Positions 4,348 through 19,146 of a stretch of DNA of 64,000 nt are shown one piece after another. Both the position numbers and the translations under genes were made by a program. Position 1 is the first letter of the stretch. Every line of letters starts with the position of its first letter. Below the pieces are notes generated by a model. The model had not been told where the DNA came from, searched no databases, and was given only the letters and a program-made list of their open reading frames with translations. The stretch lies in the NCBI GenBank assembly GCA_019670725.1, contig AP024629.1, positions 3,162,001 to 3,226,000 on the forward strand, in the 5' to 3' direction. The stretch comes from Alphaproteobacteria bacterium SO-S41 (GTDB taxonomy: Bacteria > Pseudomonadota > Alphaproteobacteria > Micropepsales > Micropepsaceae).

Positions 4348-4365
4348 CGTCTCGATAATGAGACG
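4348..4365 (-). promoter_or_regulatory. Perfect inverted repeat upstream of the lysis operon
   Basis: CGTCTC-GATAAT-GAGACG lies in the gap of about 70 bases between the Mor-like gene and the lysis block, one of the few real gaps in this leftward operon. In Mu, Mor binds a dyad upstream of the middle promoter, so this may be the site of the local Mor/C-type activator. No clear -35 was identified. Confidence 0.4.
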
Positions 4366-4415
4366 CCAAACTGGACGTGTGCGATGCCCGCCGCGCCCCT
4401 GAACGCGTTCAGGGC

Positions 4416-4823
4416 TCAGCTCTCGTCGAAGAGGTCCGGGAGAAGGAGGCGGCGGCGCTTGAGCGACCGCACCTTGTGCACGACGCGGCCGCTGCAATGC
4501 AGCCCGCGGGCGATCTGAGACGCCGACTGGCCGTCTGCATCGCGGTCGAGTATGGCGCGACGCTGGCCTTTCAGGAAGCCCTTGATCCCGGCATAGGTCC
4601 AGAGCGGCACGTCGATGCGCTCGCCGCCATACGCCTTGCCCAGCGCTTCCGCACCTGCGGGCGTGCAGATCTTGGTCAGGAAGTGCGCCGCCTTGGGCGA
4701 CTTCGGCACGAAGATCCGCACGCCGCCCTTCTGTTCGGCCAGCGCCTTCGCCGCGGACAGACCTGCGGCGCGCGCGACGATTGCGAGCACAGCGGGCATG
4801 TCCTTCGGCAGTTTGCTGGTCAC
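4416..4823 (-). CDS. Mor-like middle-operon transcription activator
   Basis: A 135-residue protein. The C-terminal region (about residues 85-125) reads as a helix-turn-helix (GQSASQIARGLHCSGRVVHKV), and a glycine-containing linker precedes it, as in the Mor/C family. The GTG start overlaps the stop of the methyltransferase gene (GTGA). Its position just after GemA and before the lysis block is that of Mu Mor (gp17), which turns on middle transcription. Sequence similarity is modest, so the call rests partly on synteny. Confidence 0.6.
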   Translation of the reverse strand: MTSKLPKDMPAVLAIVARAAGLSAAKALAEQKGGVRIFVPKSPKAAHFLTKICTPAGAEALGKAYGGERIDVPLWTYAGIKGFLKGQRRAILDRDADGQSASQIARGLHCSGRVVHKVRSLKRRRLLLPDLFDES

Positions 4824-5395
4824 GCCGCCGCCTTGCCGAATTTGCCGGCCTCGTCGCCGAAGGCCTCCCAGCCGTCCCGGTCGGTGCGGCTGAAGACATC
4901 GGCGCGCCGCTTGGCCAGAGGGTGCATGCGCTCGGCGATGTTGTAGATCTCGTCAGGCTTCTCGCTGTGCCGGCGCAGCTGCGCATGAAGCACGGACTTG
5001 ATGTCCTTGGCGCCCTGCGGCGGCCTGCCCAAGGTGGCGACGATGAAGGGCTCGAAGGATCCGCGCAGGCGATATCCGGTCCCCATGTTCACGTGACCGC
5101 GCTTCGTCGTCTTCACCCACACGCCCATCGTCACGTAGCGCATGCCGAAGCGGCGGATGATGATGTCCATCTGCCGGTGGAACATCGGCGCCGTGCACCA
5201 GAAGATGCCAAGGCCGTTAGCAGTGAAGAGATCCTGAACCGGCAGCGCGGCGATTTCCTCGTCCGTCATGCAGCGGTAGTGAGCCTGCGCGCTCTTCGCC
5301 TCGCCCTTCTTCGAGCGCAGCGCGAACAGCCACGGGAAGTCGATCACCGCGAGGTCGTAGCTGAGAGGCCGGAGCGGTTCGAACGGCCAGCTCAC
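4820..5395 (-). CDS. MT-A70 family DNA adenine methyltransferase
   Basis: A 191-residue protein. It contains the catalytic-type motif VIDFPW (a DPPW variant with Phe replacing the first Pro) and the MT-A70 pattern of AHYRCMTDEEIAALPV, GLGIFWCTAPMF and MGVWVKTTKRG. Such enzymes make N6-methyladenine; phage copies usually modify their own DNA against restriction. The GTG start overlaps the GemA stop (GTGA). It is inserted between gemA and the mor-like gene, which are adjacent in Mu, so it looks like cargo. Confidence 0.85.
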   Translation of the reverse strand: MSWPFEPLRPLSYDLAVIDFPWLFALRSKKGEAKSAQAHYRCMTDEEIAALPVQDLFTANGLGIFWCTAPMFHRQMDIIIRRFGMRYVTMGVWVKTTKRGHVNMGTGYRLRGSFEPFIVATLGRPPQGAKDIKSVLHAQLRRHSEKPDEIYNIAERMHPLAKRRADVFSRTDRDGWEAFGDEAGKFGKAAA

Positions 5396-6105
5396 GAAGC
5401 CGCCGCCTTCTTCCGCAGGGTCAAGCGAATCCAATCACCCAGCTTCGTGATCGCCTGGTCGAGCTGGTCTGAGGTGAGTTGCGACAAGGGACGCCGGCCG
5501 GGCACGATCGGGCCGTGCATCCAGCTCGTCAGCGCGTCCTCGAACGGCACCGTCACCGCGCCCAGCTTGTGCAGCTTGCTCCACTGCGCGCGGACCACGG
5601 CCTGGCGGCCCTCATTACCGACGATCTTGGCCGGCAGCTGCGCCCCTTCCTTGGCGAGCATGTCCTTCAACGCCTCGACCACGCCGGGCGCGGCGCCAGC
5701 GCGCAGGAAGCGGAGCGCCGTCACCTTCGCCTGGCGCGCGACGAACTTGTCGAGGGCCGCGTCGCTGCCGTCAGTGACGCCGGCAAGGTGGTAGAGCGAG
5801 ATCCACAGCGCGCGTACAAGGCGCTGAAAGGGCTCGGTGAGGGTCGAGGGTGCACGACCGCCCGTGAAGGCGCCGCGCTCGTCCTCGGGCAGCGCACGCG
5901 ACCAGGCGGCGAGTAGATCGCGCAGCTCGATATCGCTGAGGTCGGCCGCCGAGCGCTTGCCGGTATGGCCGGCCATCTTGTCGCGATAGGTCGCGTCATC
6001 GAGCCGAAGACGGCTCTTGAGCTGGTGCACCAGGCCGAGCAGCCGCTTCCGCTCGAAGGAGACGGCAGGCTTCGGAGCTTTGGCGGCGGCGGCGCGGGCG
6101 CTCAT
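5392..6105 (-). CDS. GemA/Mu gp16-like regulatory protein (DUF1018)
   Basis: A 237-residue protein. The N-terminal part (KRLLGLVHQLKSRLRLDDATYR at residues about 20-42) and the following helices match the GemA/gp16 family of Mu-like phages. Mu GemA modulates host gene expression and DNA topology late in the early phase. The C-terminal half carries paired helical segments ending KKAAAS. The start overlaps the upstream stop (ATGA), and the downstream methyltransferase starts within its stop. Confidence 0.85.
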   Translation of the reverse strand: MSARAAAAKAPKPAVSFERKRLLGLVHQLKSRLRLDDATYRDKMAGHTGKRSAADLSDIELRDLLAAWSRALPEDERGAFTGGRAPSTLTEPFQRLVRALWISLYHLAGVTDGSDAALDKFVARQAKVTALRFLRAGAAPGVVEALKDMLAKEGAQLPAKIVGNEGRQAVVRAQWSKLHKLGAVTVPFEDALTSWMHGPIVPGRRPLSQLTSDQLDQAITKLGDWIRLTLRKKAAAS

Positions 6106-6551
6106 CGTGTGACGTGCTCCTGGCCGATCAGCAGCGCGGTCAGCGATTTCAGGCGCGCGAAACTGTCGGCCTTCTGGTTCGCCATCGACTTCGGGTCATC
6201 GAGAAGGTCCTGATACGCCTCCAACAGGTCCATGGCGCCCAGGCCATGAGCCTGACACAGCTGAAGGACGGTGCGGTGCAGCTCCAGCGCCACGCCGCGT
6301 GGGCTCGCGGGTAGAGGTGTGGAGAAGTCGCGCGTGCGGCGGCGGAAGCTGGCCGCGGCGGTGCGTAGGAACGCGGCGCGGATCCGTGCGCGCTTATCGC
6401 CGCGCGCCAAGTCGATCAACGGTTCGACGACCAGCAGCAGGTCCTCCGTGGCGTCGCAGACTTCCTGTTCGAACGCCTCGCGGCCGATCGGCGCGACGGC
6501 CGAGGCAATCATCTCCTCGACCAGGGCGTTGTGGGCCTGTGAACTGCTCAT
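6102..6551 (-). CDS. Hypothetical prophage protein
   Basis: A 149-residue, mostly helical protein with no signal peptide or membrane segment. It has an Arg-rich stretch (ASFRRRTRDF) near residue 70. It is coupled at both ends (ATGA overlaps) to the DnaA-like gene and to GemA. I do not recognise the family; its fixed place in the early operon is all that can be said. Confidence 0.65.
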   Translation of the reverse strand: MSSSQAHNALVEEMIASAVAPIGREAFEQEVCDATEDLLLVVEPLIDLARGDKRARIRAAFLRTAAASFRRRTRDFSTPLPASPRGVALELHRTVLQLCQAHGLGAMDLLEAYQDLLDDPKSMANQKADSFARLKSLTALLIGQEHVTR

Positions 6552-6970
6552 AGGGTCACCGCTTTCGTTGTCGCCAGTGCATTGCGCGCCACGCGAACCG
6601 CGTTCAGCGCATCCATCAGCAGGGTCTCGGCAGCGGCGAGCTTTTCGTCAGCTGCAACATCGTCGAACGCCATCGGCGGAAAGCCCGCGAGCAGCTGGTC
6701 GAAGGCGCGCAGCTCCGCGTCGTCGGTCTTCAGCCGCTCCTGCGCGCGCCGAGCAGCGACCAGGACTGAGCTGTGGTCCTTGCTGATCGCCGAGCCGATC
6801 CGCTGCAGCGAGAGGTCGGGTCGCAAGGTCCGGATGGCGAGGATCCCGCGATCTCGCACGCGCGTCGTGATGGCGCCCTGCTTGCCACCGACCAGTTCGG
6901 TGAAGGTCACATGCTCCGGCGATAGCCGTGCGGCCTCTTCGAAGATCGCCTGGATGGTCGCGGTCCTCAT
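6548..6970 (-). CDS. DnaA domain-IV-like DNA-binding protein
   Basis: A 140-residue protein. Residues about 35-85 ([20 protein letters not shown], then [16 protein letters not shown]) resemble the C-terminal DNA-binding domain of DnaA, including the DHSSVLVA stretch that aligns with the DHTTVLHA signature helix. There is no AAA+ part. It could recognise DnaA-box-like sites on host or phage DNA, perhaps linking phage transposition-replication to host initiation; this is inference. It overlaps both neighbours by four bases. Confidence 0.7.
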
Positions 6971-7407
6971 GCTGCCATCCCCACGATCTCGATCGCGCGG
7001 GCTCTGAAATGGAGGCGCCGCAACTGGCCGCGCTCCTCCAAGGCGCTTAGCAAGCGATGGACACCGCTCTTCGACTTAAGGGACAAGGCCTCCGCCATCT
7101 CGCCGAATGACGGCGCAACCTGGTGCTGCTTGTAGTAGTCGCCGATGAACAGCAGCAGGTCGCGTTGCTTTGGCGTCATTCCGAAGCCGGTATTGCTGGT
7201 GACAGGGGCGAGCGCGGCCATCGCCGCCTCGCGCTGCTGCCAGCCCTTCACCCGCTTCTCGATCTGCCAGAGCACATAGAGCGCGGTATCGGCGTTCGAT
7301 TTGGCCTGGACGTCGCCATCTGCGGCGGCGACCCGCGACAGGTCGCCATAGTCCGCGATCTCTGCCGTGATCATCGTGGCGATATCGTTCAGCGGGAGGT
7401 TCGCCAT
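6967..7407 (-). CDS. LexA-like winged-helix protein lacking the peptidase domain
   Basis: A 146-residue protein. The C-terminal 70 residues (from [16 protein letters not shown] through [13 protein letters not shown] and [20 protein letters not shown] to RARAIEIV) closely follow the N-terminal DNA-binding domain of alphaproteobacterial LexA, including the recognition helix SKSG-HRL--ALEERG. There is no S24 peptidase domain; an unrelated helical segment of about 75 residues precedes it. It should bind LexA-type boxes but cannot self-cleave, so it may hold SOS promoters shut, or may regulate the GTTC-N7-GTTC promoter at 16.44 kb in this prophage. Confidence 0.8.
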
Positions 7408-7952
7408 TAGTCCTCCTCTGCCAGCTCAAGGCCGGCCGGGATGATCGCGAACTTCTCGACGTCGGCAATGATGGAGACGCCGGGCACCTTCGCGGCTTCC
7501 GCGGCGTGCTTCAGCATCGACTCCTTGTCGAGTTCGGGCTTCACGCGCAGAAACAGCTTGCGGATGGCCGGCGTCGCCTGGTCGAGCAGCCAAGCGACTA
7601 CCTCGCTCACTTTGCCGGCGACTTTTACGCTCGGCGGGTCGTTCCGCCAGACAAGATGGCCGGCCGGCAGTTCGATGGTTTTGGTCTTGCCGTTCTGCGT
7701 CAGCTCGTCCCGGCGAGCCTCGGCAAACGCCTGAAGCTGCTTTTCGAGCAGCTTTAGAGCCTCCTTATGCGGAGCAGCGGCGGCCTCGGCCGTATCCTTC
7801 AGCGCGGCCGACTGGCGCTGCAGATCGGTGCCGATCTCGGTAATCGCGTTCAGGTGATCGCCGAACGCTTTGATCAGCGCGTTCGCCTCGTCCTTCGACT
7901 GAGGAACGTGCAGCGTGGGCGACTTGGTGCGGGGCTTGCGGACGGCGGTCAC
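7407..7952 (-). CDS. gam: Mu Gam-like host-nuclease inhibitor
   Basis: A 181-residue protein of the Mu Gam family, which binds double-strand DNA ends as Ku does and shields them from RecBCD/AddAB-type exonucleases. Recognisable segments are the N-terminal coiled helices ([20 protein letters not shown]), then [14 protein letters not shown], then [18 protein letters not shown]. The GTG start at 7952 overlaps the upstream TGA (GTGA); the longer reading upstream lies within the previous gene. It is positioned between MuB and GemA as in Mu. Confidence 0.85.
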
Positions 7953-8293
7953 TGCGCGGCCCTCCGCACCTTGGCCTGTGTCTCCTTGTCGAGCAGCGGA
8001 AAGACCGCCTGCTCCAGCCGCGCTTCGGCGAGGCAGATGGAGACTTTGTCGTCGGTCGTAAGGCGCGTGGTCCACCAATCCGCCGCCGCCTGCGCGACGG
8101 GCATTGAGATGGCGACCAGGCTGACAAGCAGATCCGTCTCCAGGATCGAGAGCTGCATGACGGCGTTCCGGCGCTGCCCGTCATGCGCGATCGCCACGAT
8201 CGCCGCGACCTTCGGCCCGAGGGCACGATAGCGTGCGGCAGCCGCCTCTTGTGCGGTCATCGGCGTTGTGGGCTTTTCCGCGGCTTCGGTCAT
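7949..8293 (-). CDS. Hypothetical prophage protein
   Basis: A 114-residue, soluble, helical protein (contains ADWWTTRLTTDDKVSICLAE). The start ATG overlaps the upstream stop (ATGA), and the end overlaps the GTG of Gam. No family was recognised; it occupies the interval between MuB and Gam, where Mu has small early genes of variable content. Confidence 0.65.
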   Translation of the reverse strand: MTEAAEKPTTPMTAQEAAAARYRALGPKVAAIVAIAHDGQRRNAVMQLSILETDLLVSLVAISMPVAQAAADWWTTRLTTDDKVSICLAEARLEQAVFPLLDKETQAKVRRAAQ

Positions 8294-8505
8294 GCCACGA
8301 CCTCGCCGTCACGCGCTGCGATGCGGCCGGAGAAGGCAACGCGATCGGTCAGCCGGCCTGTCTCGATCGCAATGTCGATGTTGCTGCAGTGACGAAGCAC
8401 GGCATCGAGGCGCGCGATCAGCGATTCGTACGAGATGCCGCCAGCGGCGACTGCCTTGGTGTTCTCCACCAGGCCCCGGATGGTTTTGACGCTCTCGGTG
8501 ATCAT
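8290..8505 (-). CDS. Small hypothetical prophage protein
   Basis: A 71-residue protein beginning MITESVKTIRGLVENTKAV, with no membrane segment. It starts 11 bases after the MuB stop and overlaps the next gene by four bases. This is the position of kil in Mu, but there is no sequence basis for calling it Kil. Confidence 0.6.
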   Translation of the reverse strand: MITESVKTIRGLVENTKAVAAGGISYESLIARLDAVLRHCSNIDIAIETGRLTDRVAFSGRIAARDGEVVA

Positions 8506-8515
8506 GAGGTCCTCC

Positions 8516-9514
8516 TCAGGCCTTGATGGTGGGTGAGATCTGCTCCCAGGCGTCGAGCATGTGGACGAGGCCGCGATCGGCGCTGTCCAGCTGCGCGATG
8601 CGCGTGGCGAGCTTCATGAGCTTGGTGATGGAGCGGAGCCCGCCCGGCTGCTGCGAAACTTTGAAGAGAAGATCCGCTTCGTCCTTCTCCTCGACGCCCC
8701 ACGCGGCGGCGATCATCGCCACGTCTTCGCGGCGCGGCCGGTTCTGCTTCTCGCGCATGCCGATGCGCGAGCTGAACTGCGCGAAGGTGACGTTCCGCGT
8801 GCCGTCGAACAGGTCGAAGATGTGCTGGTTGCCGACGAAGACCATGCCGACGCCGGTGCGGTCATGGATCGAGCGCAGCTCGTCGACGGCGAGCGCGCTA
8901 AGGTGCTGGGCTTCGTCGATGATGAGCAGCGCGCCGCCTCCGGAGACCTTTTCGCAGATCTTGCTTGAGAGCGCCTGCGGCGTCCCTTTTGCGCCTTTCT
9001 CACCGAGCGACTGCAGCACCATGATGAGGGCCGTGCTGACACCGCGCGACGATGGCGACATGGTCGAAATTGAAACGCGCGGCCGTTCCATCCTGTACTG
9101 CTCGCAGGCCGTCGTCTTGCCGAAGCCGGGGCCGCACCCGATGACGGCCATGTCGCCGTCCATCTGCGCGTAGTCGAGAATGGCGAGGATGCGCTGCGCC
9201 GACTTGGTCCGCTGAAATGGCGGCGTGGTCACCATTTCCCGCGCGCGCATCACCCGGTCGGCGCGCAGCTTCAGCCACTTCGTCACCTTCTCGGCGACCT
9301 TGGCGTTGTCGCCGGCATAAGTGTCGTTCGCCCACGAGCTGAGCGTGCCCTCGGCGACGCCGGCCAGCTTCGCAGCTTGCCCGTGCGTGAGGCGGTCGGC
9401 CTCGCGAGCGATCTTGTATTGCGCCCTGATCGCCGCGACCTGGTCGACGTTCAGCGGCCCATCGAAGGCCTCTTTTGAGAAGTGAATGCTCATGGTATCA
9501 GGGTTCCATTCCAT
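8516..9514 (-). CDS. MuB-like transposition ATPase and target-DNA activator
   Basis: A 332-residue AAA+ protein. The N-terminal 75 residues hold a helix-turn-helix (HGQAAKLAGVAEGTLSSWAN), as in MuB. The ATPase domain shows Walker A GPGFGKTT and Walker B LLIIDEAQH, followed by a sensor-like VFVGNQH. MuB binds target DNA, stimulates MuA strand transfer and mediates target immunity. The start is ATG 9514, with an AGAAAGG-like ribosome site about 10 bases upstream; a second ATG at 9493 is possible. It lies 40 bases after MuA. Confidence 0.9.
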   Translation of the reverse strand: MEWNPDTMSIHFSKEAFDGPLNVDQVAAIRAQYKIAREADRLTHGQAAKLAGVAEGTLSSWANDTYAGDNAKVAEKVTKWLKLRADRVMRAREMVTTPPFQRTKSAQRILAILDYAQMDGDMAVIGCGPGFGKTTACEQYRMERPRVSISTMSPSSRGVSTALIMVLQSLGEKGAKGTPQALSSKICEKVSGGGALLIIDEAQHLSALAVDELRSIHDRTGVGMVFVGNQHIFDLFDGTRNVTFAQFSSRIGMREKQNRPRREDVAMIAAAWGVEEKDEADLLFKVSQQPGGLRSITKLMKLATRIAQLDSADRGLVHMLDAWEQISPTIKA

Positions 9515-9554
9515 AGTTGCGTTGCCTTTCTGGCCCGGCGTTACAGCGCCGGGC

Positions 9555-11522
9555 CTATTCGCTCGTCACGACGCGCAGGTACGGGTTGGCCTCATGGGCC
9601 GCCCGATGCTCCACGAGCCGGTCGAGTGAATCTCTGCGTTGAGGGTTGGGGCTGGTGTCGGCCTCGTCGGCCGGCAGTGCGCGAGCCTGCAGCGCCAGCG
9701 CGCCAAATACTGGCCGCACGATCTTGGGCTCTTCGATGATTGGGGCAGACGGCGTGTCGAGCGCGGCGCGCATCGCGGCCAGCTCCTCGGCGTTATAGCG
9801 CCGTTCGGCCTTCGCCAGCTGTTTCGTCGCCTTGATGAAATCCCGGCGCGCGCGGCCATGCCGGCGACCGGCTTCCACGTCCGCGAAGCCCGCCTTCAGG
9901 ATGCAGGCGGCGGTCGTGACGAACGCGCCGGCCATATCGTAGACGAAGATCTCGCCGTGGAGGTCCTCGGGATCGAACCGCACCTGCACGGTCTGACCGC
10001 GGAAGCGCAGCAGTGCCTCGTCGTGATAGCGATTGTGGAGCAACGTCACCGCGCCGTCGTCCTGGGCGCAGGTCAACGGCTTCGACGAGAGCAGGCAGAG
10101 GCGCAGCTGCTCCTCGGTCGCGCGGGTGATGAGGCCGCGCCCGGCCGCCGCCTCATAGGACTGCGTGAAGGCCTCGTCGAAGGACCGGACGCCTGCGCAC
10201 ACCTGGCTCTTGCGTTTCGGCCGCGCGTTCCACTCCGCGATTTCGCGCGTAATGACGTCAATGAAGGTGTCGAGCGGCACGGCGTGACTGCCGTAATCGT
10301 GCGGCTTGGAAACGGTGTTGTGGCCGAGATAGGCGCCCGCGAAGGCGACGTCCTTGGCGAGGTCGTGGGCCATGTCGCGCCAGGCGCGCTCGATAGGCTT
10401 CGACTGACCGGCATAGACCTGCGTGAAGTGCGCCTGGACGCCCAGCATGGTCAGCATGCCCTGCGGGTCTTCCTCGCGGATCGTGAAGCGGTAGCGGCTC
10501 TTCTGCCCGCCCGTCAGCTGCTTCGACGCATAGGCCGCGCCGTTGTCGATCCAGAGGTGCTGGGGCACGCCGAACGCGCGGAACGCATCCACGAAGGTGA
10601 TGCGCAGCGCCTCGCTGTTTTCGGAGCGGCCGATGCGCCAGGCGAGCAGCTTGCCGCTGTAAAGATCGCTGATCCCCACCATGGCGGGGCGGCCGAACGT
10701 GCCGTCCGGCCATTCCACCATGACGTCCCAATTATGCGTGTCCGAGCACATCGCCTCGGTCGCAAAGAAACCGCTGCGGTCGCGCGTCTGGTGCGGATAG
10801 GCCGCTTTCAGCGCGTCGGGCCCTTCGCGGTAGAGGATCTCGACGGCGGGCGGCACGTCGCGCTTCACGCGGCGGCGAAGCACCGCCAGCGGCGGCATTG
10901 TGATGCCCTGAGCCGTGGCCAGCCGCGCCGTCGAGCGCCAGCACTTCTCGGCGGAGGGCTGCGAGCCCTGAAGCCAGAAGGATTTGTAGAGTTCGACGAC
11001 GGCGTTATCGACTTCGACGCGCGACTGGCCGCCCTGATGGCGCGGCGCGAGATATGGCAGGCGGTTGGCGCGCTCGACGGACGAGACCGCCTTGAACCAC
11101 TCGTAGACCGAGGCTCTGGAGACCTTCGCCTCGTCCGCTGCTGCGGCGACGGCGGCCGTGCGCCCGATCAGCGGCGCGAGGGTTTCGACCTGCTGCAGGA
11201 TCGCCAGCTTCGCCTTCGCCGCGTCCTTCTTTTTCGCGGGCAGGCGGTCGAATGCCGCCCAGGCTTCGGCGGGCGAGTCCGGCACCGTGCTCGGCGCGGC
11301 GGCGGGCTTCAGAAACGCCTGCGCAGCCTCAGGCAACAGCGTCACGTGAAACTCTACGCCGCCGCCACGACCTGCACGGGGGCGGCAGAGCGCCTCGCCT
11401 GCAGCGTTCCGCATCAGCGCCCAGCCCTCGCGCGCGGCGAGGTGGTTGATGTTGCGCTTCGTCCCCGGCAAGCCCGGCAGGCTGAGCGCTGCCAGCTCGG
11501 CGGACGTGTACCAAACCCTCAT
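9555..11522 (-). CDS. MuA-like DDE transposase
   Basis: A 655-residue Mu-type transposase that cuts the phage ends and joins them to target DNA. The N-terminus (VWYTSAELAALSLPGLPGTK) is the MuA-type winged helix that binds the internal enhancer. End-binding helices follow (about residues 90-230). The catalytic core shows Asp in CSDTHNWDV, Asp in LWIDNGAAYA and Glu in KPIERAWRDM. The C-terminal region should contact MuB. ATG 11522 overlaps the upstream stop (ATGA); the longer in-frame extension is non-coding overlap with the preceding gene. Confidence 0.93.
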   Translation of the reverse strand: MRVWYTSAELAALSLPGLPGTKRNINHLAAREGWALMRNAAGEALCRPRAGRGGGVEFHVTLLPEAAQAFLKPAAAPSTVPDSPAEAWAAFDRLPAKKKDAAKAKLAILQQVETLAPLIGRTAAVAAAADEAKVSRASVYEWFKAVSSVERANRLPYLAPRHQGGQSRVEVDNAVVELYKSFWLQGSQPSAEKCWRSTARLATAQGITMPPLAVLRRRVKRDVPPAVEILYREGPDALKAAYPHQTRDRSGFFATEAMCSDTHNWDVMVEWPDGTFGRPAMVGISDLYSGKLLAWRIGRSENSEALRITFVDAFRAFGVPQHLWIDNGAAYASKQLTGGQKSRYRFTIREEDPQGMLTMLGVQAHFTQVYAGQSKPIERAWRDMAHDLAKDVAFAGAYLGHNTVSKPHDYGSHAVPLDTFIDVITREIAEWNARPKRKSQVCAGVRSFDEAFTQSYEAAAGRGLITRATEEQLRLCLLSSKPLTCAQDDGAVTLLHNRYHDEALLRFRGQTVQVRFDPEDLHGEIFVYDMAGAFVTTAACILKAGFADVEAGRRHGRARRDFIKATKQLAKAERRYNAEELAAMRAALDTPSAPIIEEPKIVRPVFGALALQARALPADEADTSPNPQRRDSLDRLVEHRAAHEANPYLRVVTSE

Positions 11523-12025
11523 CGACGCCCCCGCGCCCGTGCTGAAATCGTGTGCGGCTGCAGCGGCGAGAGTGCGGCCAGCTCGCGGTCGCGCTTCTTC
11601 AGGTCTTCCATCTGCTTTCGGACGAGGCCCCGCTGTGCGTAGATCGCATCCTCCCCGGCGAGGATCGTGAGGCCGTGGCCCTCGGTCGCGATCTCCCAAA
11701 GCCAGACCGCGCCGGTCGCGTGGATCAGGGCGCCGAGGCGCGTGACGGAGATGTCGTGCTCCTCGCGCGCGGGCGAGGCATAGGCGTTCAGCATATGAAC
11801 GCTGACCGGCTCGCCGAGTGCTGTGGTCATCTCGAATGCGATCTGGTCGCGCGACTTGCCGCTGTCCTTCAGCGCCTCGCTGATCGCCTGGGCCAGGCGC
11901 AGCTTGAAGGTTGAGGCCGTGACGACGCCCTTGGGAGCATGCACCGGATACAGCGCACGCGCATCGGCGAGCGAAAACAGATCGCCCTGCCGCTGATCGT
12001 TGGTGCTGGTCCGGCGACCGCTCAT
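11519..12025 (-). CDS. Hypothetical prophage protein, possible XRE-like DNA binding
   Basis: A 168-residue protein. Residues about 45-105 (RLAQAISEALKDSG, then SRDQIAFEMTTALG) resemble a helix-turn-helix of the XRE type, followed by a C-terminal coiled helix. It is directly upstream of and overlapping MuA, where several alphaproteobacterial Mu-like phages have a DUF3164- or DNA-binding-type small protein. I cannot assign a specific family. ATG 12025 is chosen because it overlaps the upstream stop. Confidence 0.65.
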   Translation of the reverse strand: MSGRRTSTNDQRQGDLFSLADARALYPVHAPKGVVTASTFKLRLAQAISEALKDSGKSRDQIAFEMTTALGEPVSVHMLNAYASPAREEHDISVTRLGALIHATGAVWLWEIATEGHGLTILAGEDAIYAQRGLVRKQMEDLKKRDRELAALSPLQPHTISARARGRR

Positions 12026-12387
12026 TTGCGCGTCGCCCTCGGCGCACGCATGACGAAGACGGCGGGGAAGCTGCAGCGGCAATACTCCGCCATGGCGTTA
12101 TCATGCGCCTTGGGGTCGTCGCCGTAGGAGGCAAGCAGCCGCTTGAATGTCCTGCTTTTCAGATCGCCCTGTCCTAGGGCGACGTTCGTGGTGTCGAGAT
12201 AGACACTGCCGTTGTTGAACGTGAATTCTTGGGCGAACGCGGTCTCGATGCGCCCGACCTGTTCGGCGAGTTTCTGAGCCGCGCGCGCGATCAAACGCTT
12301 CTCGCAGCCCATGACGGCGCACCGCAGGACCAGCTCGACGAGTTGGCGGTGATGTTTCGACGCTTTGATTGCGCGGCGAGGGGCCAT
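12022..12387 (-). CDS. Hypothetical prophage protein
   Basis: A 121-residue basic protein (many Lys and Arg at both ends) with a possible amphipathic N-terminal helix. No motif was recognised. Its stop overlaps the next start by four bases, and its start abuts the preceding stop, so it is part of the early operon. Confidence 0.6.
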   Translation of the reverse strand: MAPRRAIKASKHHRQLVELVLRCAVMGCEKRLIARAAQKLAEQVGRIETAFAQEFTFNNGSVYLDTTNVALGQGDLKSRTFKRLLASYGDDPKAHDNAMAEYCRCSFPAVFVMRAPRATRK

Positions 12388-12695
12388 CAGCGGCGCTCTC
12401 CCCGAACGCTGCGGTCGGCCAGCAGGGCGCGATCAGATCCAACCCCGCCGCGCCAGGCGGGCAACACCCACCGATCGCGAATAACGCCATCCGACACGAT
12501 CTTCGAGCTGCGCGAGGGGATGAAGGCGGCGGCAACATAGGCGACCTTCAGTTTCGGCAGCGGCTTGCCCGCGTTGAGGCAGTCCCGTGCTTCCTCAGCG
12601 TGTGCCTTGTTGGTGAACGTCAGTGAGAGACCGCCGCCGCCGGGAGTGACGATCCAGGTGCCATCCATGGGCGAGTGCGCGATCGAGGCGGGCAT
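12387..12695 (-). CDS. Small hypothetical prophage protein
   Basis: A 102-residue protein starting MPASIAHSPMDGTWIVTPGG. The segment GGGLSLTFTNKAHAEEARDCL looks like a small alpha/beta fold similar to DUF2188-type mini-domains. The upstream extension of the frame is a shadow of the zinc-finger gene. The start is coupled to that gene's stop. Confidence 0.55.
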   Translation of the reverse strand: MPASIAHSPMDGTWIVTPGGGGLSLTFTNKAHAEEARDCLNAGKPLPKLKVAYVAAAFIPSRSSKIVSDGVIRDRWVLPAWRGGVGSDRALLADRSVRGERR

Positions 12696-12895
12696 CAGCG
12701 GCGCGCCTCCGCCAATGCGAGCTGGCGGTCGAAGACCTCGACCTTCTCGGGGCACGACGTGCACACGCCGACGGCCAGCGGGTAGCTGACTTTGATCCAG
12801 CCGCAGGGGTCGCCATCGGGGCCCTTGCAGGCGCGGCTGTCGGTGCAGCCGCAGCCGAGGCACGTCGCCTCGCGAAACTTGCTCGCGCGCGCCAT
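12695..12895 (-). CDS. Small Cys-rich (zinc-finger-like) prophage protein
   Basis: A 66-residue protein with CLGCGC near residues 12-17, a second Cys in SRACKG, a third in DPCGWI and a late CTSC, consistent with a zinc or iron-sulfur binding fold. Similar short proteins with CxxCGC-DSRAC-GPDG-C-W are common in alphaproteobacterial phages. It overlaps its neighbours by one base on each side. The function is unknown. Confidence 0.65.
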   Translation of the reverse strand: MARASKFREATCLGCGCTDSRACKGPDGDPCGWIKVSYPLAVGVCTSCPEKVEVFDRQLALAEARR

Positions 12896-13077
12896 CAGTA
12901 GATGCCCGCCATAGGAGCGGCGCGCTCGATAACGGTGTCATCGTCGAAGGCCAGCGTCACCGCCTCGTCGGGCGACAAGACGAGGCCCGTCCACAGGACA
13001 TCGTCTCTGGTGGACACATCGCGCGTCAGCTCCTCGTGACGAAACGCGGGGCGGTGCGTCGGTACTTGAACGGCCAT
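12895..13077 (-). CDS. Small hypothetical prophage protein
   Basis: A 60-residue acidic protein (VLSPDEAVTLAFDDDTVIER in its C-terminal half). There is no recognisable domain. It begins at the stop of the ParB-like gene and ends at the start of the Cys-rich gene, so it is translated as part of the operon. Confidence 0.55.
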   Translation of the reverse strand: MAVQVPTHRPAFRHEELTRDVSTRDDVLWTGLVLSPDEAVTLAFDDDTVIERAAPMAGIY

Positions 13078-14084
13078 TAGCCTTCTCCCTTTTGCGTGGG
13101 GGTTGTGATCGCGTAGCCCTTGGGCAGGCGGGCCAGCGGCTTCGCGCCGCCGGCGTCGAGCGCGAACAGGTCGAGCAGCTCACCGCGCTCCTTTGGCGCC
13201 AGCGTCGGCCACCAGGCGCGCATCCGCTTCATGCGCTTGGCGCTCTCGCTTTCTTCGCTGGGCTTCTTCACGGCCGCGGCGCCATGGATGCCGGCGACGG
13301 CCTCGGCATCGGCGACAGTCGCCGCGCCGGCTACGATGGCCTTCACCACCTTCGCGCGGTCGCCTTTGGGCAGCTTCACCAGCCGCAGCAGCTGCGACGT
13401 TTTCGAGCCGATGGGCGTATGGCGCAGCGCCTCGGCCATCTCAGGCTCCAGGCCGCGAAAGAGCGCGATGTCGTTCTTGATTGTGCGGGTGGTGAGGCCG
13501 AGCTTTTCGGCGATCTGGTCCTGCAGATCGTATGCGGAGGAAATCATTTCCCCCGCATCCGTTGCTTCGGCCTTTACGCGGTCGGCCCACCGCGCCATAG
13601 CCGCGATCTTCTGCTTGTGCTCGCCGAGGCTAACGCCCTTGGCCTGTAGCTGCAGCTGATACCACTCGCCGACATGAGCGGCGCGGTCGAGCGGGCTCAG
13701 CTCGTGACGGACGAGGTTCTCACCGATCTCGCGCGCTCGGCGCACGATCAGCGTGTGATCGACGATACGCGCCGCGATCTCCGTCCAACCGAGCCGAACG
13801 CAGGCTGCGAGGCGGTGCGCACCGCAGACGAGGCGATATCCCTTGCCTTCGCGACACACCTCGATCCGAGTTAGGAGGCCCTGGGCATAGATGTCGCCCA
13901 TCAGCAGATGTACGTGCGCCTCACTGACCGGGCGCAGCCGGTCAGCGACCTTGATCTGCTCGATATCGATCAGCTCGACCGTCTCGCCGGCAGGCTCGGG
14001 GTGGAAAGCCTCGCCTTTGAGGACCTCTTCGGAAATGCCTTCCAGGTCGGGGACAAAGGGAACTGATTTCGGGGCGCTCGCCAT
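13077..14084 (-). CDS. ParB/Spo0J-type CTPase-fold protein of the phage early region
   Basis: A 335-residue ParB-family protein. The N-terminal ParB nuclease/CTPase fold spans about residues 35-130, with RLVCGAHRLAACVRLGWTEI and the GENLVRHELSPLDRA box. A central helix-turn-helix follows at about 175-200 (IAEKLGLTTRTIKNDIAL). There is no ParA nearby, so classical partition is unlikely. In Mu-like phages of this class it more likely acts as a DNA-binding early regulator. It lies two bases after Ner. The start ATG 14084 is clear. Confidence 0.85.
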   Translation of the reverse strand: MASAPKSVPFVPDLEGISEEVLKGEAFHPEPAGETVELIDIEQIKVADRLRPVSEAHVHLLMGDIYAQGLLTRIEVCREGKGYRLVCGAHRLAACVRLGWTEIAARIVDHTLIVRRAREIGENLVRHELSPLDRAAHVGEWYQLQLQAKGVSLGEHKQKIAAMARWADRVKAEATDAGEMISSAYDLQDQIAEKLGLTTRTIKNDIALFRGLEPEMAEALRHTPIGSKTSQLLRLVKLPKGDRAKVVKAIVAGAATVADAEAVAGIHGAAAVKKPSEESESAKRMKRMRAWWPTLAPKERGELLDLFALDAGGAKPLARLPKGYAITTPTQKGEG

Positions 14085-14086
14085 GT

Positions 14087-14362
14087 CTACGCGACCCCTG
14101 CGTTTTGACTCGCGCGGGCGGGGCCAGCGTCGTTAGATGCGACTCGCGAGGCGACTGAAGGGTAGCGATCGGGCCACAGCACACAGGCGGCGACGCCCAA
14201 GAACTTGGCGATGGCAGCTTCGCCGGCGCGGTGGCGCCGCGTGAGAGCGACCCATCCAGCGGACTGCTCTAGTCCCGCTTCTTGAGCCAGCCGAAACAGC
14301 GTCATTCCGCGGCGATGGATCGCCGCCTTGATCTCGTGCTTGTCCCAACGTTTGCGCTTCAC
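14087..14362 (-). CDS. Ner-like negative regulator (Nlp family HTH)
   Basis: A 91-residue protein with a helix-turn-helix over residues 12-50 (IKAAIHRRGMTLFRLAQEAG) and the LGVAACVLWPDRYP ending of the Ner/SfsB family. It is the first gene of the leftward operon and faces the repressor gene, as in Mu, where Ner dampens early and repressor transcription. The start codon is GTG (14362). Confidence 0.85.
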   Translation of the reverse strand: MKRKRWDKHEIKAAIHRRGMTLFRLAQEAGLEQSAGWVALTRRHRAGEAAIAKFLGVAACVLWPDRYPSVASRVASNDAGPARASQNAGVA

Positions 14363-14470
14363 GCCTGGCCTCCGGTGCCGGATCTGCGGGTCCGGCTTTT
14401 TCCGGAGCCCAAATCAGGAACCTGACGATGGCGTATATGCTATTTGTCGTCAACAGATATGAGGTTAACG
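14363..14470. promoter_or_regulatory. Divergent immunity region between ner and the repressor gene
   Basis: This gap of about 108 bases separates the leftward lytic operon from the rightward repressor and should hold the early promoter, the repressor promoter and their operators. I see AT-rich stretches (GCGTATATGCTATTTG) on the repressor side and GTTAAC near 14465, but no convincing operator repeat. Confidence 0.5.
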
Positions 14471-15127
14471 GTGGCAGAAACGCCGTCTTCGAAGGCTGAT
14501 CTGCGAGAAATCGGAGAGCGAATTCGCTTGGCCGTTCAAGGCGCTGGCGGAAATGCTATCGTATCCGAAAAATCTGGTGTTCCGGTTGGAACGATCAACA
14601 ATTACATCGCCGCCAAGTCCGAACCGAGCGTCCTAAAACTGGCGGCGATCGCGAAGGTGACGAATCACTCGATCGATTACTTCCTAACGGGCAGGGATCC
14701 GCCGACTGCCTCCGACTTCGAGCTAATCCCGCTCTACGACATCCGCCTCTCTGCTGGAGCAGGGGCGTGGAACGAGCGGGCGCGAATTATCGAGATGGTG
14801 CCGTTCACCAGAGCACAAATTCTCGCCATTCCCGGCCGCCGCTCGACGAAGGATTTGGCGCTTCTAAGGATCCGCGGTGACTCGGGCGGCGATCGGCTCC
14901 CTGACGGCGCACTCGCGATGGCTGACACTGCGGATAACCAGCTAGCTGATGGCCTGTTCGCATTCGTTCAAGATGACAATGCGCGAGTGAAGCGCTTTCA
15001 GGTCTTGATGTCAGGCATCACCTTGATGAGCGACAATAAGACCTATCCTGACGAGCATGTGGACTATGATCAGATGCAGGATGTTTCGATTATCGGCCGC
15101 GTTGTCTGGTGCGGCGCGCCGCTTTGA
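14471..15127 (+). CDS. Prophage repressor, XRE HTH plus S24 (LexA/CI-type) peptidase
   Basis: A 218-residue repressor. The HTH spans about residues 10-65 (GNAIVSEKSGVPVGTINNYI). The C-terminal S24 domain has a candidate Ala-Gly cleavage site (LSAGAGAW), a nucleophile in RGDSGGD and a general-base Lys in NARVKRFQ, so RecA-stimulated self-cleavage is plausible. This would make the prophage DNA-damage inducible, unlike Mu itself. I chose GTG 14471 because GAGG lies six bases upstream; ATG 14459 or TTG 14444 are alternatives in the same frame. Confidence 0.85.
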   Translation: MAETPSSKADLREIGERIRLAVQGAGGNAIVSEKSGVPVGTINNYIAAKSEPSVLKLAAIAKVTNHSIDYFLTGRDPPTASDFELIPLYDIRLSAGAGAWNERARIIEMVPFTRAQILAIPGRRSTKDLALLRIRGDSGGDRLPDGALAMADTADNQLADGLFAFVQDDNARVKRFQVLMSGITLMSDNKTYPDEHVDYDQMQDVSIIGRVVWCGAPL

Positions 15128-15138
15128 CGTGAGGTCCC

Positions 15139-15522
15139 ATGAAGCTCGGAGCGATTATTCTCTTTGCGGTCGCGCTGACGGCAGGAAAGCCAGTGCCATC
15201 GCTCGACGAGCAACGCGAAACTGCAATCAAAGCTCGTATGGAGATGGTCCTAAAAGACCCCGAATCTGCTCGCTATAAATTCGGCCCTTTGGAATGCGTT
15301 CGGGTGACGTCGGGCACTGAACCAGGCGGAAAGGAGCTTTGGGCCGGTGTCGCGCAGAAGTTCCTCGTCAACGCGAAGAACAGCTTCGGTGGATATTCTG
15401 GCTGGTCTGCATTTGCGACGCTATGGGTCGGACAAGGCCCCGAGATCCACCAGCTCCTTTCTCCAGAAGATATCGCGCACCAGCGCATCTATCTCAATTT
15501 CGTTCCCTGCGTCAGCAAGTAG
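15139..15522 (+). CDS. Exported hypothetical protein of the prophage
   Basis: A 127-residue protein with a short signal peptide (KLGAIILFAVALTAG) and a compact domain containing two Cys (GPLECVRV and FVPCVSK), probably a disulfide. It starts 11 bases after the repressor stop, so it is probably expressed from the lysogen. This suggests a lysogenic-conversion or superinfection-exclusion role, which is inference. Confidence 0.65.
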   Translation: MKLGAIILFAVALTAGKPVPSLDEQRETAIKARMEMVLKDPESARYKFGPLECVRVTSGTEPGGKELWAGVAQKFLVNAKNSFGGYSGWSAFATLWVGQGPEIHQLLSPEDIAHQRIYLNFVPCVSK

Positions 15523-15526
15523 ACGG

Positions 15527-15649
15527 ATGCCGGCCATCAAGAGTTGGCATCGCTTCGCCGCAGTAGCCGCTCGCGCCGGCATCTACGTCTTCGTTGCCTT
15601 TTGCGTCGTCGGCATTCTTAGCGGCTGGTACTTAGCTTTCAGAGGCTGA
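15527..15649 (+). CDS. Short single-span membrane protein
   Basis: A 40-residue protein, MPAIKSWHRFAAVAARAG followed by one membrane helix (IYVFVAFCVVGILSGWYLAF). It starts four bases after the previous stop and is probably cotranscribed with the repressor and the exported protein. Its size and topology suit a superinfection-exclusion or small regulatory peptide, but nothing proves it. Confidence 0.5.
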   Translation: MPAIKSWHRFAAVAARAGIYVFVAFCVVGILSGWYLAFRG

Positions 15650-16015
15650 ACGGCCGATCTGGTCGCCGTTCGGGTTGCGATACTTCCGCACCAGAACATA
15701 GGCGTTGAGCAGATTGTCGATGAGGGCGGCCGCCAGCGATTTGCGGGCCCATTCCCTCTCCTGCCACTCTTTCGATCGAAGCGCCGGCAGTTCTCGGCGC
15801 GCCGCCATGGCCGCCAGCTTCACCGCGAAAGTCGTCTCGATCTCAGCGCGGGTCACGAACTCGGGTTCGCGGCCGTTGATCCGCCAGCGCAACCGATCGC
15901 CGAACTGCGCAGCGCGCGCGAGCGCGTCTAGTTCTTCAAGCGTGACCGTCACCAGCCCCGCATCGGCCTGACCGAGAAGGCGGTCGATGAGTGGCTGGAT
16001 AGCCTGCTTGATCAT
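15632..16015 (-). CDS. Unknown protein, second gene of LexA-box operon (prophage copy)
   Basis: A 127-residue soluble protein. Its middle (VTLEELDALARAAQ, GDRLRWRING, TRAEIETTFA) aligns with the protein at 58056-58418 (VPVAALRPLLNAARQADKMRWRE, PIDEVRRTLAGAI). Both start in an ATGA overlap with the first gene of the pair. I do not recognise the family. Control by the upstream LexA box suggests induction by DNA damage. Confidence 0.7.
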   Translation of the reverse strand: MIKQAIQPLIDRLLGQADAGLVTVTLEELDALARAAQFGDRLRWRINGREPEFVTRAEIETTFAVKLAAMAARRELPALRSKEWQEREWARKSLAAALIDNLLNAYVLVRKYRNPNGDQIGRSASES

Positions 16016-16413
16016 CGGCCGACGAGCGCCGCCACCTGGCGCTGCATAACCTTCACCAGGTCGGCGAGCTGCTGTCCGGTCGCCTCCTGATGCACCCACC
16101 GGAAATCGTGGAAGACCCGGCCTCGATCGGCGTCATGGACGGCCAGCTCTTGGTTGAATTCGTCCTCAGGATAGAATGACAGCCTCGTGTAGAGGCACTT
16201 GAAGCCAGGCCGGCCAAGGAACGCCACCGAGCCTGAAGTGCGATCTCCATCCACCACCCATTCCGAGGCGGCCTGAAGGTGCAACGTGCCTTGCAGCGGC
16301 GGCGGGTCTTCATTGAGCAGGAAGACAGGGATCAGATCCTCGATCTCCACCTGGTCCGCTTCCTCGATCTGCCGCCTGGTGATCTTGCGCGCCCGAACTG
16401 CAGCCTTACCCAT
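16012..16413 (-). CDS. Unknown protein, first gene of LexA-box operon (prophage copy)
   Basis: A 133-residue protein. The C-terminal part (VFHDFRWVHQEATGQQLADL and VKVMQRQVAALVG) aligns with the end of the protein at 58415-58786 (IFRDFQWEDPMPEDPEVLAR and LMLRMMRVVAAIV). The shared core is F-DF-W, a Leu-rich amphipathic helix and VAA. The start at ATG 16413 is favoured by AGGGAG seven bases upstream; ATGs at 16419 and 16446 are also in frame, the last inside the LexA box. The function is unknown. Confidence 0.7.
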   Translation of the reverse strand: MGKAAVRARKITRRQIEEADQVEIEDLIPVFLLNEDPPPLQGTLHLQAASEWVVDGDRTSGSVAFLGRPGFKCLYTRLSFYPEDEFNQELAVHDADRGRVFHDFRWVHQEATGQQLADLVKVMQRQVAALVGR

Positions 16414-16440
16414 CGCCATTCTCCCTTCTTGTGCGGATGA

Positions 16441-16480
16441 GAACATAATGAGAACATGCTGAGTGCTAGGAGTCGAGTCC
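16441..16480 (-). promoter_or_regulatory. LexA box with promoter (GTTC-N7-GTTC)
   Basis: Read leftward, 16455-16441 is GTTCTCATTATGTTC, an exact match to the alphaproteobacterial LexA consensus GTTC-N7-GTTC. Fifteen bases upstream stands GGACTCGACT (16480-16471). If TCGACT is the -35, a 17-base spacer places TCTCAT as the -10, overlapping the box. The same arrangement with identical spacing occurs at 58804-58843. Confidence 0.8.
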
Positions 16481-16527
16481 TGCAGCTCATTTCGAGCGAT
16501 CGGAGCTGTTCGCGAAAATGTGGATAA

Positions 16528-16737
16528 CTAGCGCAGGCGGTTAGGCCCTGAAGCTGATGATCGTGCGCGCTCGCCTTCGGAGACCGTATCTGCATCGACC
16601 CGCGTAAAGACGCGCGAGCCCCATAGTTCCTCCGCCTTGGCCTTGGCGGCATCTCGGGTAGGGCACTCAAGCGCGAGGGAAGGATCCGCCTGACCGCGAC
16701 GGAAAGCTCTGACCCAGAACGTTTGTGCTGGCATCAT
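16528..16737 (-). CDS. Small hypothetical protein
   Basis: A 69-residue protein, MMPAQTFWVRAFRRG, with a short alpha/beta pattern (LALECPTRDAAKAKAEELWG) like a DUF2188-type mini-domain. Two ATGs (16737, 16734) could serve. It stands alone upstream of the LexA-box operon, in the same direction. The relative position resembles that of the 87-residue gene at 58961 in the second island, but I see no clear sequence similarity. Confidence 0.5.
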   Translation of the reverse strand: MMPAQTFWVRAFRRGQADPSLALECPTRDAAKAKAEELWGSRVFTRVDADTVSEGERARSSASGPNRLR

Positions 16738-16834
16738 GTGCTCCGTGGAAAAAGACGAGTGCGCAGCGGCTGTCGAAGCGTATGCTTCTTACCGTGCCAT
16801 CTTGGTTGTGCGGAGCGGAATCTAACCTAAGACT

Positions 16835-17059
16835 ATGTCATCTGCTGTCTCGGAGGTCGCTCTATTGCCCAAATTTGCAATTGAGTTGACCGGACATTGC
16901 GGCGCCTGGCTCTCCCTGCGACGCTTCGATCAGGACGCCGCGATCGACGATGCCGTCGAATTCTGGCTGACCGACAACTATGCGGCGGTGGTCATACGGC
17001 GCGGCGGTAAGGTCCTCTGGCAGATGCCCCAAGCCGCAGGCCCCGGGCGATTGATCTAG
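16835..17059 (+). CDS. Small protein of the EFWLT family (prophage copy)
   Basis: A 74-residue protein. The core AWLSLRRFDQDAAIDDAVEF, then WLTDNYAAVVI and GGKVLWQMP, matches the protein at 59494-59751 (LALLQPDEAVALDNAIEFWL, GTKVLWGSP). The predicted fold is a small alpha/beta domain with strand-helix-strand layout. The family is unnamed to me. It is followed by the WRA-type gene in both islands. Confidence 0.65.
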   Translation: MSSAVSEVALLPKFAIELTGHCGAWLSLRRFDQDAAIDDAVEFWLTDNYAAVVIRRGGKVLWQMPQAAGPGRLI

Positions 17060-17076
17060 GTTATTGATCTAGATCA
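17051..17076. promoter_or_regulatory. Repeated TTGATCTAG and 12-bp palindrome
   Basis: TTGATCTAG occurs at 17051-17059 and 17064-17072. The second copy is part of the perfect palindrome TGATCTAGATCA (17065-17076). It lies at the end of the EFWLT gene and upstream of the next gene, where an operator could sit. Confidence 0.4.
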
Positions 17077-17133
17077 GTTCGGACAATTTAACGCAGCCTG
17101 TAAGACGCCTAGTGGTGGCGCCCCCAACCTACG

Positions 17134-17148
17134 GTGATAAAATATCAC
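17134..17148. promoter_or_regulatory. Inverted repeat upstream of the 17171 gene
   Basis: GTGATA-AAA-TATCAC is a perfect 6-bp inverted repeat 23 bases before the ATG at 17171. It contains an AT-rich TAAAAT that could be a -10 (GATAAAAT), so it may be an operator over that promoter. Confidence 0.4.
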
Positions 17149-17170
17149 TGTCGCAATCGGGGGCATACGC

Positions 17171-17410
17171 ATGCCTTGGCGAGCAAAGCTATTTCAAAGT
17201 TTCGGACCGAACGGCGGCCAGTTTGCCGCCGACCCTGAAACTGAGGCGATCGCCCGCCAGGTCGTCGCCGAAGCGAAGCGCGAAGGCGCCAGCAAAGACG
17301 ACGTTGCCAAAGAGGTGGTCTATCACGCTCATTCGGTGATGATCATGGCCACTATCGCGCTGGAGCCATACCTCAGCATTGCGCTCCAGCGGCTCGACGA
17401 CCTCTGGTGA
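17171..17410 (+). CDS. Small protein of the M-WRA family (prophage copy)
   Basis: A 79-residue protein starting MPWRAKLF. It aligns along its whole length with the protein at 59838-60098: M-WRA-L, F-DP-TE--AR-V-A-AKR-G, DDVA-E-V-H and a final L--LW. It is helical and acidic in the centre (DDVAKEVVYHAH). The family is not recognised. It is the last gene before the presumed prophage end. Confidence 0.65.
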   Translation: MPWRAKLFQSFGPNGGQFAADPETEAIARQVVAEAKREGASKDDVAKEVVYHAHSVMIMATIALEPYLSIALQRLDDLW

Positions 17411-17878
17411 GACGCCGATAGCATCGTCCCACTTACTTCAGCCGGAAGATGGATCAGTGATTTGGTTAAGTGAGTAAGAGGCGCGGATTTCCGCCTCAAA
17501 ACGCCATCGTCCCACTTCTTTTCAAACTGGGACGGCATTTGCCCAGTTCCTCACCCCCTTAGCTGGCTTCCAAGCGTTGTCCTCGGCGGCTTGCTGACCG
17601 CCCTTATTGAGCGCTGAGGGCCGGTTTTCCGCGTTCTTGGGCGCTCCAGAGGCCTTTCTAAGGACGGCTAAGGGCTGCGCGCCGCGAGGGCCGTTTTGGC
17701 CGGCAGGGTGGCCGCGCGGTGTCTATCTTTACCAAAATTCTAGACACCGGCTGCGCGCTGCGCGTAGCTCGGAAATCGCCAATTTTTAGCGGCTTCCTGC
17801 GGTTTCCATCCCGCTATTGCCCGTCAAATCCCGGAATATCCCGTCTCCAGAATTGGATGATCACTTACACCGATCTCG
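17411..17878. other. Non-coding prophage end region with short repeats
   Basis: No convincing gene. CATCGTCCCACTT occurs twice in direct orientation (17422-17434 and 17505-17517), with an inverted TGGGACG just after the second copy. These could be transposase end-binding sites, since MuA binds several repeated sites at each end. A 9-bp perfect inverted repeat (CGGTGTCTA at 17717-17725, TAGACACCG at 17741-17749) also lies here. I could not pick the terminal CA. Confidence 0.45.
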
Positions 17879-17979: not shown

Positions 17980-19146
17980 CTAGGCGCTCACCCCATACCC
18001 CGCCGCCGCGCGCTTCTCGTCACGGTCCAGGAAGGTTGCCGACTCCAGCTGCGCCCACAGGTTGGCGCGTTCCTCGGTCAGCGCCGGCACCGCGTCGGCA
18101 TCGACGGCAAGCCGCAGCCCGCTTCCGAATTGCGGCCCCAGCCACCGCGTCAACGCCGCCGCCATCCGCGCGGCCAGCGGCAGCACCGTCTGCCGCCAGA
18201 AGGCGAGATTGGCCGCGCCGTAATTGGCATAGGTCGCATCGCCGGGAATCCCGAGCAGCATGGGCGGCACGCCGAACGCCATCGCGATGTCGCGCGCCGC
18301 CGCGTTGCGCCCCGCGTCGAAATCCATGTCCTGCGGCGTCAGGCTCATCGGCCGCCATTCCAGGCCGCCCTCCAACAGCAGCGGCCGCCCTGCCCCGCGC
18401 GGTCCGCTGCGCTGCTGGTCCAGCTCGTCGCGCAGCCGCTGGTATTGCTCGTCGCTCAGCGCCTCCGCGCCCGGGCTCCCGCGATAAACCAACGCGCCGC
18501 TGGGCCGCGCGGCATTGTCGAGCAGGGCCTTGTTCCAGGCCGCCATCGCATTGTGCAGGTCGATCGCCTGCGCCGCCGCCTCGATGGGCGACAGGCCATA
18601 GTGATCGTCGACGGGATGGAACAGCTTCAGATGCAGCACGGGCAGAAACCCGTCCGCCTCGCGCTTGAGGCTCACCTCGCGCCCGCCGGCGCTGTAGACA
18701 TACGCTTCCGGCCACCCGTCGCGCCCCGGCACCGCGCGCACCCGGTCGGCGCGCAGCGCGAACAGCTCGCGCGGCACGCCGTCCAGCCGTACGGCCTCCA
18801 TATAGGCGTTGCCCGCGATCTGCAGCCCGGCATAGAGCCGCTCCATCACATCGGAGCGCGTCTCCGCCGGATTGGGCGTTGCGATCAGCTCGAGCAGCGG
18901 ATGCTGCGTCAGCTCCGCGTCGCCCTCATACAGCAGGAACGGCACGCTCGCCGCCGCCTCCGCGATCATGCGCACGGCGCGATAGGCGACCGGGTTCTTC
19001 ACGAACCCCTCGCGCGCCAGACTGGCATAATCGCGCGGCGTCCACCGCGCGCGCCCGCCATGCTGGAGCGCAATCACCGGCCCCGCCGCACTCGCCTTGC
19101 CTTCGGGCGCACGCATCCGCGCCCGCCGCCTGAAGCGTTCGAACAT
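17980..19146 (-). CDS. HK97/GTA-type portal protein
   Basis: A 388-residue portal protein, the dodecameric ring through which DNA enters the capsid. Typical segments are NPVAYRAVRMIAEAAASVPF (residues 50-69), QIAGNAYMEAVR, then HLKLFHPVDDHYGLSPIEAA, then DFDAGRNAAARDIAMAFGVP and MLLGIPGDATYANYGAANLA. Its length and sequence match the gene-transfer-agent portal (RcGTA g3 type). No prohead protease or capsid gene follows before the prophage, so the cluster is interrupted or incomplete here. A sigma70-like promoter lies upstream at 19332-19360. Confidence 0.9.
   Translation of the reverse strand: MFERFRRRARMRAPEGKASAAGPVIALQHGGRARWTPRDYASLAREGFVKNPVAYRAVRMIAEAAASVPFLLYEGDAELTQHPLLELIATPNPAETRSDVMERLYAGLQIAGNAYMEAVRLDGVPRELFALRADRVRAVPGRDGWPEAYVYSAGGREVSLKREADGFLPVLHLKLFHPVDDHYGLSPIEAAAQAIDLHNAMAAWNKALLDNAARPSGALVYRGSPGAEALSDEQYQRLRDELDQQRSGPRGAGRPLLLEGGLEWRPMSLTPQDMDFDAGRNAAARDIAMAFGVPPMLLGIPGDATYANYGAANLAFWRQTVLPLAARMAAALTRWLGPQFGSGLRLAVDADAVPALTEERANLWAQLESATFLDRDEKRAAAGYGVSA

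Follow-up and report, generated by a model that had tools for sequence, protein, structure and literature searches.

Two related gene pairs in the window

The window, the whole 64,000-nucleotide stretch of the genome of Alphaproteobacteria bacterium SO-S41 that was analyzed, contains two pairs of small genes, termed A/B and A'/B'. Within each pair the genes are joined by a 4-base ATGA overlap, as an earlier examination of the DNA without database searches (the sequence-only reading) had described.

16012-16413, minus strand: gene A, 133 aa, acidic; predicted beta-strands followed by a C-terminal helix (low confidence)
15632-16015, minus strand: gene B, 127 aa, slightly basic; all-helical by prediction (low confidence); overlaps A at ATGA
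58415-58786, minus strand: gene A', 123 aa, homologue of A
58056-58418, minus strand: gene B', 120 aa, homologous to B and overlapping A' at ATGA

Homology between the products of the two sites, which had also been proposed, was confirmed by sequence identity, shuffling and a six-frame comparison. Identity was 30% between A and A' (E=4e-7) and 28% between B and B' (E=3e-8). Shuffle z-scores were 16.7 for A/A' and 11.2 for B/B', as against 0.5 and -0.4 for the cross pairs, and the A and B frames were the only ones within the A/B stretch to match at E < 0.001. The first products are acidic, with net charges of -4 and -9, while the second products are slightly basic (+3 and +1). AlphaFold models generated from two-row alignments had a pLDDT of 44-45, so that the secondary-structure predictions are tentative; with such a model of A (pLDDT 44-45), Foldseek detected no match at E<=0.001.

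LexA boxes and the SOS regulon of the genome

Exact alphaproteobacterial LexA boxes had been reported upstream of both pairs, and their positions and pattern agreed with our analysis.

16441-16455, minus strand: LexA box of A/B, GTTCTCATTATGTTC; exact GTTC-N7-GTTC, 7th of the 70 boxes in the genome by the SOS spacer profile
58804-58818, minus strand: LexA box of A'/B', GTTCTTATTTTGTTC; exact GTTC-N7-GTTC, 1st of the 70 boxes in the genome by the SOS spacer profile

The bare GTTC-N7-GTTC pattern was not significant within the window (2 found versus 1.6 expected from shuffles); hence, any meaning of the boxes must come from the genome. Genome-wide the pattern was enriched, with 70 occurrences compared to 42 for a reversed control, and 20 genome stretches with chosen boxes were fetched for reading of the downstream genes. 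In this genome GTTC-N7-GTTC precedes recA, lexA, uvrA (divergent from ssb), uvrB, imuA and a Y-family polymerase gene; further boxed genes were a DNA glycosylase-like gene and two radical SAM genes. The presence of the box before recA, lexA, the uvr genes and others indicated that it serves as the SOS box in this organism; it is in accord with the LexA box published for Caulobacter (PMC12700426).

A spacer profile was built from eight core SOS genes, with the boxes of A and A' being left out, and a random spacer reaches the score of the A box with a probability of 7e-4. Besides GTTC-N7-GTTC, the boxes of the two pairs have an AT-rich spacer like that of known SOS genes, and they lie close upstream of the first gene. 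This comparative evidence supports the assignment of A/B and A'/B' as predicted members of the LexA regulon. A/B resemble the Caulobacter-type alphaproteobacterial LexA regulon in the sequence and spacing of the box and in its location immediately before the start codon, but the A/B products are unlike the recognized members seen here and one copy is prophage-borne.

A shared element upstream of the boxes

The sequence-only reading had further placed a conserved element exactly 15 bases upstream of both LexA boxes, and GGACTCGACT was indeed present at this distance in each case.

16471-16480, minus strand: GGACTCGACT element of A/B, 15 bases upstream of the box; GANTC sites inside; probable -35 region
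58834-58843, minus strand: GGACTCGACT element of A'/B', 15 bases upstream of the box

There are five occurrences of GACTCGACT in 4.44 Mb. Three of these five copies are followed, after exactly 15 bases, by a LexA box; the third of them precedes a chromosomal VOC-family gene at genome position 564260, whose promoter shows the GACTCGACT-N15-LexA box arrangement of A/B and A'/B'. One of the other two sites was within a coding frame and one, lacking a box, was in the Mu-like prophage that carries A/B. The chance of any of the three further GACTCGACT sites being so placed was estimated at about 2e-5, taking in three sites, 70 boxes and the two strands of 4.44 Mb. Conservation of the promoter, with the same element and spacing at both pairs, was thus upheld, but the promoter is not private to them: due to the third copy at the same spacing before the VOC-family gene, it is not specific to the pair. 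The GACTCGACT signature is real but looks like a promoter type rather than a mark of the A/B pair.

A distance of 17 bases separates TCGACT from a weak -10 element overlapping the first GTTC, a spacing which suggests that GGACTCGACT acts as the -35 region. As a sigma-70 consensus scan found no promoter, this -35 assignment is one that we infer. In IMG/VR the promoter pattern gave one match, which was located within a reading frame of a T4-like contig without an A/B relative and was judged to be due to chance.

GANTC, the CcrM site, was depleted around the window (146 versus 383 expected). Within 60 bases of 17 SOS boxes the count was 11 versus 2.4 expected, a comparison made without a control from other intergenic DNA. 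The sequence GACTCGACTC provides two GANTC sites at A/B and at the VOC gene.

A/B as cargo of a Mu-like prophage

The A/B pair is carried by a Mu-like prophage of 41,520 bp (genome 3138350-3179869), each end of which reads TGTA-N11-AATTCTGGA and adjoins a copy of the 5-bp target duplication CCGAT.

1-17869: part of the prophage within the window; its left (c) end is at 17869, and the target duplicate CCGAT follows at 17870-17874
9555-11522, minus strand: MuA-like transposase of the prophage (phrog_310, 7.9e-138)
14444-15127, plus strand: c repressor of the prophage, HTH and S24 peptidase; convergent with A/B

Other prophage genes encode a transposition protein B, a Ner-like regulator and a ParB-like protein, and a gene at 1376-1945, recognized by eye, is presumably Mu gp27-like. 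A pattern resemblance of the product of gene B to a terminase small subunit was rejected, there being no profile support and the phage already having the Mu gp27-like gene. The prophage is inserted between a portal gene (17980-19146) and a protease gene, identified by reading, of what we take to be a gene-transfer-agent-like cluster; the cluster is split by the 41.5-kb element.

A/B and two further genes, E' and F', sit between the c repressor and the left prophage end. A/B are, therefore, located between mapped ends and outside the core genes, as is cargo of Mu-like phages. This location, next to the immunity region, together with the LexA box and the small size of the proteins, would suit an SOS-controlled induction switch like the antirepressors GfoA/GftA of Gifsy, Tum of coliphage 186 and AntC of N15. 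Those antirepressors, like A and B, are encoded by small genes of prophages, and host LexA controls them directly; for A/B, such control is predicted. In such a switch either A and/or B would inactivate the c repressor or transcription of A/B into the convergent c gene would lower repressor supply; A/B are transcribed toward this opposite-strand gene, with only a weak terminator-like site in between. Gifsy-type LexA-controlled antirepressors, however, serve repressors without an S24 self-cleavage motif, and the known examples cited are single small proteins, while A and B are two coupled genes (PMC3121763). The c repressor of this prophage has a peptidase domain (PF00717, E=1.5e-13, residues 96-221) in which, by reading, the Ser, Lys and Ala-Gly positions are kept, so that it looks self-cleavable and should be cleaved directly; the antirepressor explanation is weakened by this difference from the Gifsy targets. 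Furthermore, family searches detected no sequence relation of A/B to the antirepressors, and A'/B' have neither a prophage around them nor a repressor beside them. An induction switch is, on this evidence, distinctly improbable.

In six related alphaproteobacterial transposable phages the corresponding slot, from the c repressor to the left end, contained variable cargo. In Sinorhizobium phage Aussie (OR786373) the slot is occupied at 566-2775 by the PARIS genes AriA and AriB, annotated as hypothetical proteins. A/B have the same position as PARIS and are likewise two adjoining genes, but they have no relation to AriA/AriB (no match in PADLOC), and the GTTC-N7-GTTC box found at A/B was present in the left-end slot of none of the six related phages. 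The slot of Thiobacimonas phage vB_ThpS-P1 contains, at 5782-8041, two overlapping genes (474 and 281 aa) that had no Pfam or PADLOC match.

The occurrence of PARIS in this slot and the patchy presence of A/B are also in keeping with a toxin-antitoxin-like or defense/exclusion module on a mobile element that is fired or re-set by DNA damage. Two small genes with a 4-base ATGA overlap and an acidic product encoded first, followed here by a slightly basic one, are an arrangement that A/B share with type II toxin-antitoxin operons, but this order of charges and the overlap are frequent in ordinary operons. Type II operons are usually autoregulated and not controlled by LexA, whereas A/B have predicted LexA control in place of evident autoregulation. 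No toxin, antitoxin or defense match was obtained with PADLOC, Pfam or NCBIfam, and no known family of toxins or antitoxins was found to be related in sequence. Such a module is rather unlikely.

The conserved block and the chromosomal locus

Comparison of the DNA beyond the two pairs revealed further homologous genes.

16835-17059, plus strand: gene E', 74 aa, prophage copy, homologue of E (48% over 54 aa, E=2e-16)
17171-17410, plus strand: gene F', 79 aa, prophage copy, homologue of F (43%, E=9e-20)
58961-59224, plus strand: gene C, 87 aa, chromosomal locus
59224-59421, plus strand: gene D, 65 aa, chromosomal locus only
59494-59751, plus strand: gene E, chromosomal copy
59838-60098, plus strand: gene F, chromosomal copy; weak relative on E. 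coli plasmids

Beyond both pairs E and F retain their order and lie on the strand opposite to A/B, with C and D intervening between A'/B' and E/F at the chromosomal site. The sequence-only reading had described a two-gene module; the pair is conserved at both sites, but the conserved block extends to at least four genes (A, B, E and F).

That reading had assigned one copy to a prophage and the other to a chromosomal island. The first assignment stood, with the prophage ends mapped exactly, while the second site has neither phage ends nor a second MuA. The idea that the region at 57-60 kb is the remnant of another Mu-like prophage was rejected for want of matching phage ends and a second MuA, and a tRNA-linked island was rejected because the window contains no tRNA. 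A duplicate of the 5' part of C lies at 57949-58099, on the far side of A'/B' (88% over 151 nt). A'/B' are flanked by the resulting 151-nt direct repeat (57949-58099 and 58954-59104, with truncated and complete copies of gene C), as if the pair had been inserted there. Directly adjoining the chromosomal block, at 60133-61251 of the window, is a gene for a protein with a winged helix, a histidine-kinase-like ATPase and a STAS-like DUF4325 domain.

Distribution and relatives

Neither protein had been given a name by the sequence-only reading, and A/B matched no family in Pfam, NCBIfam, PHROGs or PADLOC. Searches of phage and plasmid records, IMG/VR and GTDB contigs detected no relative of A or B; the plasmid search for B used the chromosomal copy B' only, and the contig searches rested on short conserved peptides, such that distant relatives could be missed. 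Searches of the 95 further genomes of the order, and of a sample of about 386 from the class, likewise gave no A, B or F. MuA of the prophage was also missing from all of these 95 order members, which is consistent with A/B being mobile cargo. A weak match to A in one genome of the order or class samples, G032 (E=0.002), was rejected, being antisense to a gene, recognized by eye, that we take to be tyrosyl-tRNA synthetase-like.

This distribution bears on whether A/B encode a cellular SOS function (repair, damage tolerance or division delay) that is carried by chance on mobile DNA, as with further hypothetical members of the LexA regulon. The chromosomal copy consists of intact genes, its LexA box is the best one in the genome, and the chromosomal VOC-family SOS gene has a promoter of the same GACTCGACT type. 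Core SOS functions, however, would not be expected to be missing from all of the other order genomes and the sampled class genomes, and A/B are linked to E and to F, which is as rare as A/B. We consider that a cellular function of this kind has little likelihood.

The sequence-only reading had named the pair as a candidate for an undescribed system. The lack of matches to named families accords with this proposal, but it is possible rather than proven, with the block being found only in this genome, two copies alone being unable to show a shared biochemical function, and the structure models being uninformative. That A/B together with E/F represent an undescribed two-protein system without known relatives, carried by mobile elements under direct LexA control, is a tentative proposition. 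It is equally doubtful, though conceivable, that such a system would act only in DNA-damaged cells, for example in host takeover at induction or in exclusion of competing phages.

A damage-timed effector as the favored interpretation

A/B are real prophage cargo of the LexA type. The explanation that we favor is that A/B form a damage-timed effector serving its element, a piece of Mu-like prophage cargo wired to the host SOS response; taken as a whole, this statement has about an even chance of being correct. A/B would be accessory cargo lodged between the c repressor gene and the left prophage end, under host SOS control. In an undamaged cell, host LexA would occupy the box overlapping the promoter and the operon would be off. 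DNA damage would lead to RecA filaments and self-cleavage of LexA, and A and B would then be synthesized jointly, with the ATGA overlap coupling them; the c repressor of the phage, being of the S24 type, should be cleaved in response to the same signal. The acidic A protein and B would most likely form one functional unit acting on a host process during prophage induction, thereby helping phage development or the damaged lysogen. Chromosomal A'/B' would be a diverged relative in the same four-gene block (A, B, E and F), probably left by another mobile element.

LexA binding, induction, an A-B complex, the timing and the origin of the second copy are features that we infer. As relatives of A/B were found only in this genome, the proposed function rests on position and control. 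The intact genes and best LexA box of the chromosomal copy, with no detectable phage, are a poor fit to a role in phage development.

LexA-wired prophage genes show viruses reading the alarm signal of their host. Such genes are a known kind; what is new here is that the A/B proteins have no relatives in these searches, and with two sequences per family and no reliable model a stronger claim to novelty would not be justified. Two unnamed families with about 30% identity have kept a LexA promoter, an overlap and two neighbor genes at two sites, and the sharing of these features despite such divergence makes chance or decay unlikely. A/B are a compact pair for testing. A damage-timed device for host takeover or exclusion would, if confirmed, be a new kind of cargo for the left-end slot of transposable phages; otherwise, A/B would still be an ordinary but well-mapped SOS cargo operon.

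E. coli plasmids carry a weak relative of F (30%, E=8e-3), with the alignment beginning at the start codon. This relative also occurs on Klebsiella and Salmonella plasmids, at 4001-4240 in the plasmid stretch compared, and in one case is located near genes for a DpnII/MboI-type nuclease and an Abi-family protein.
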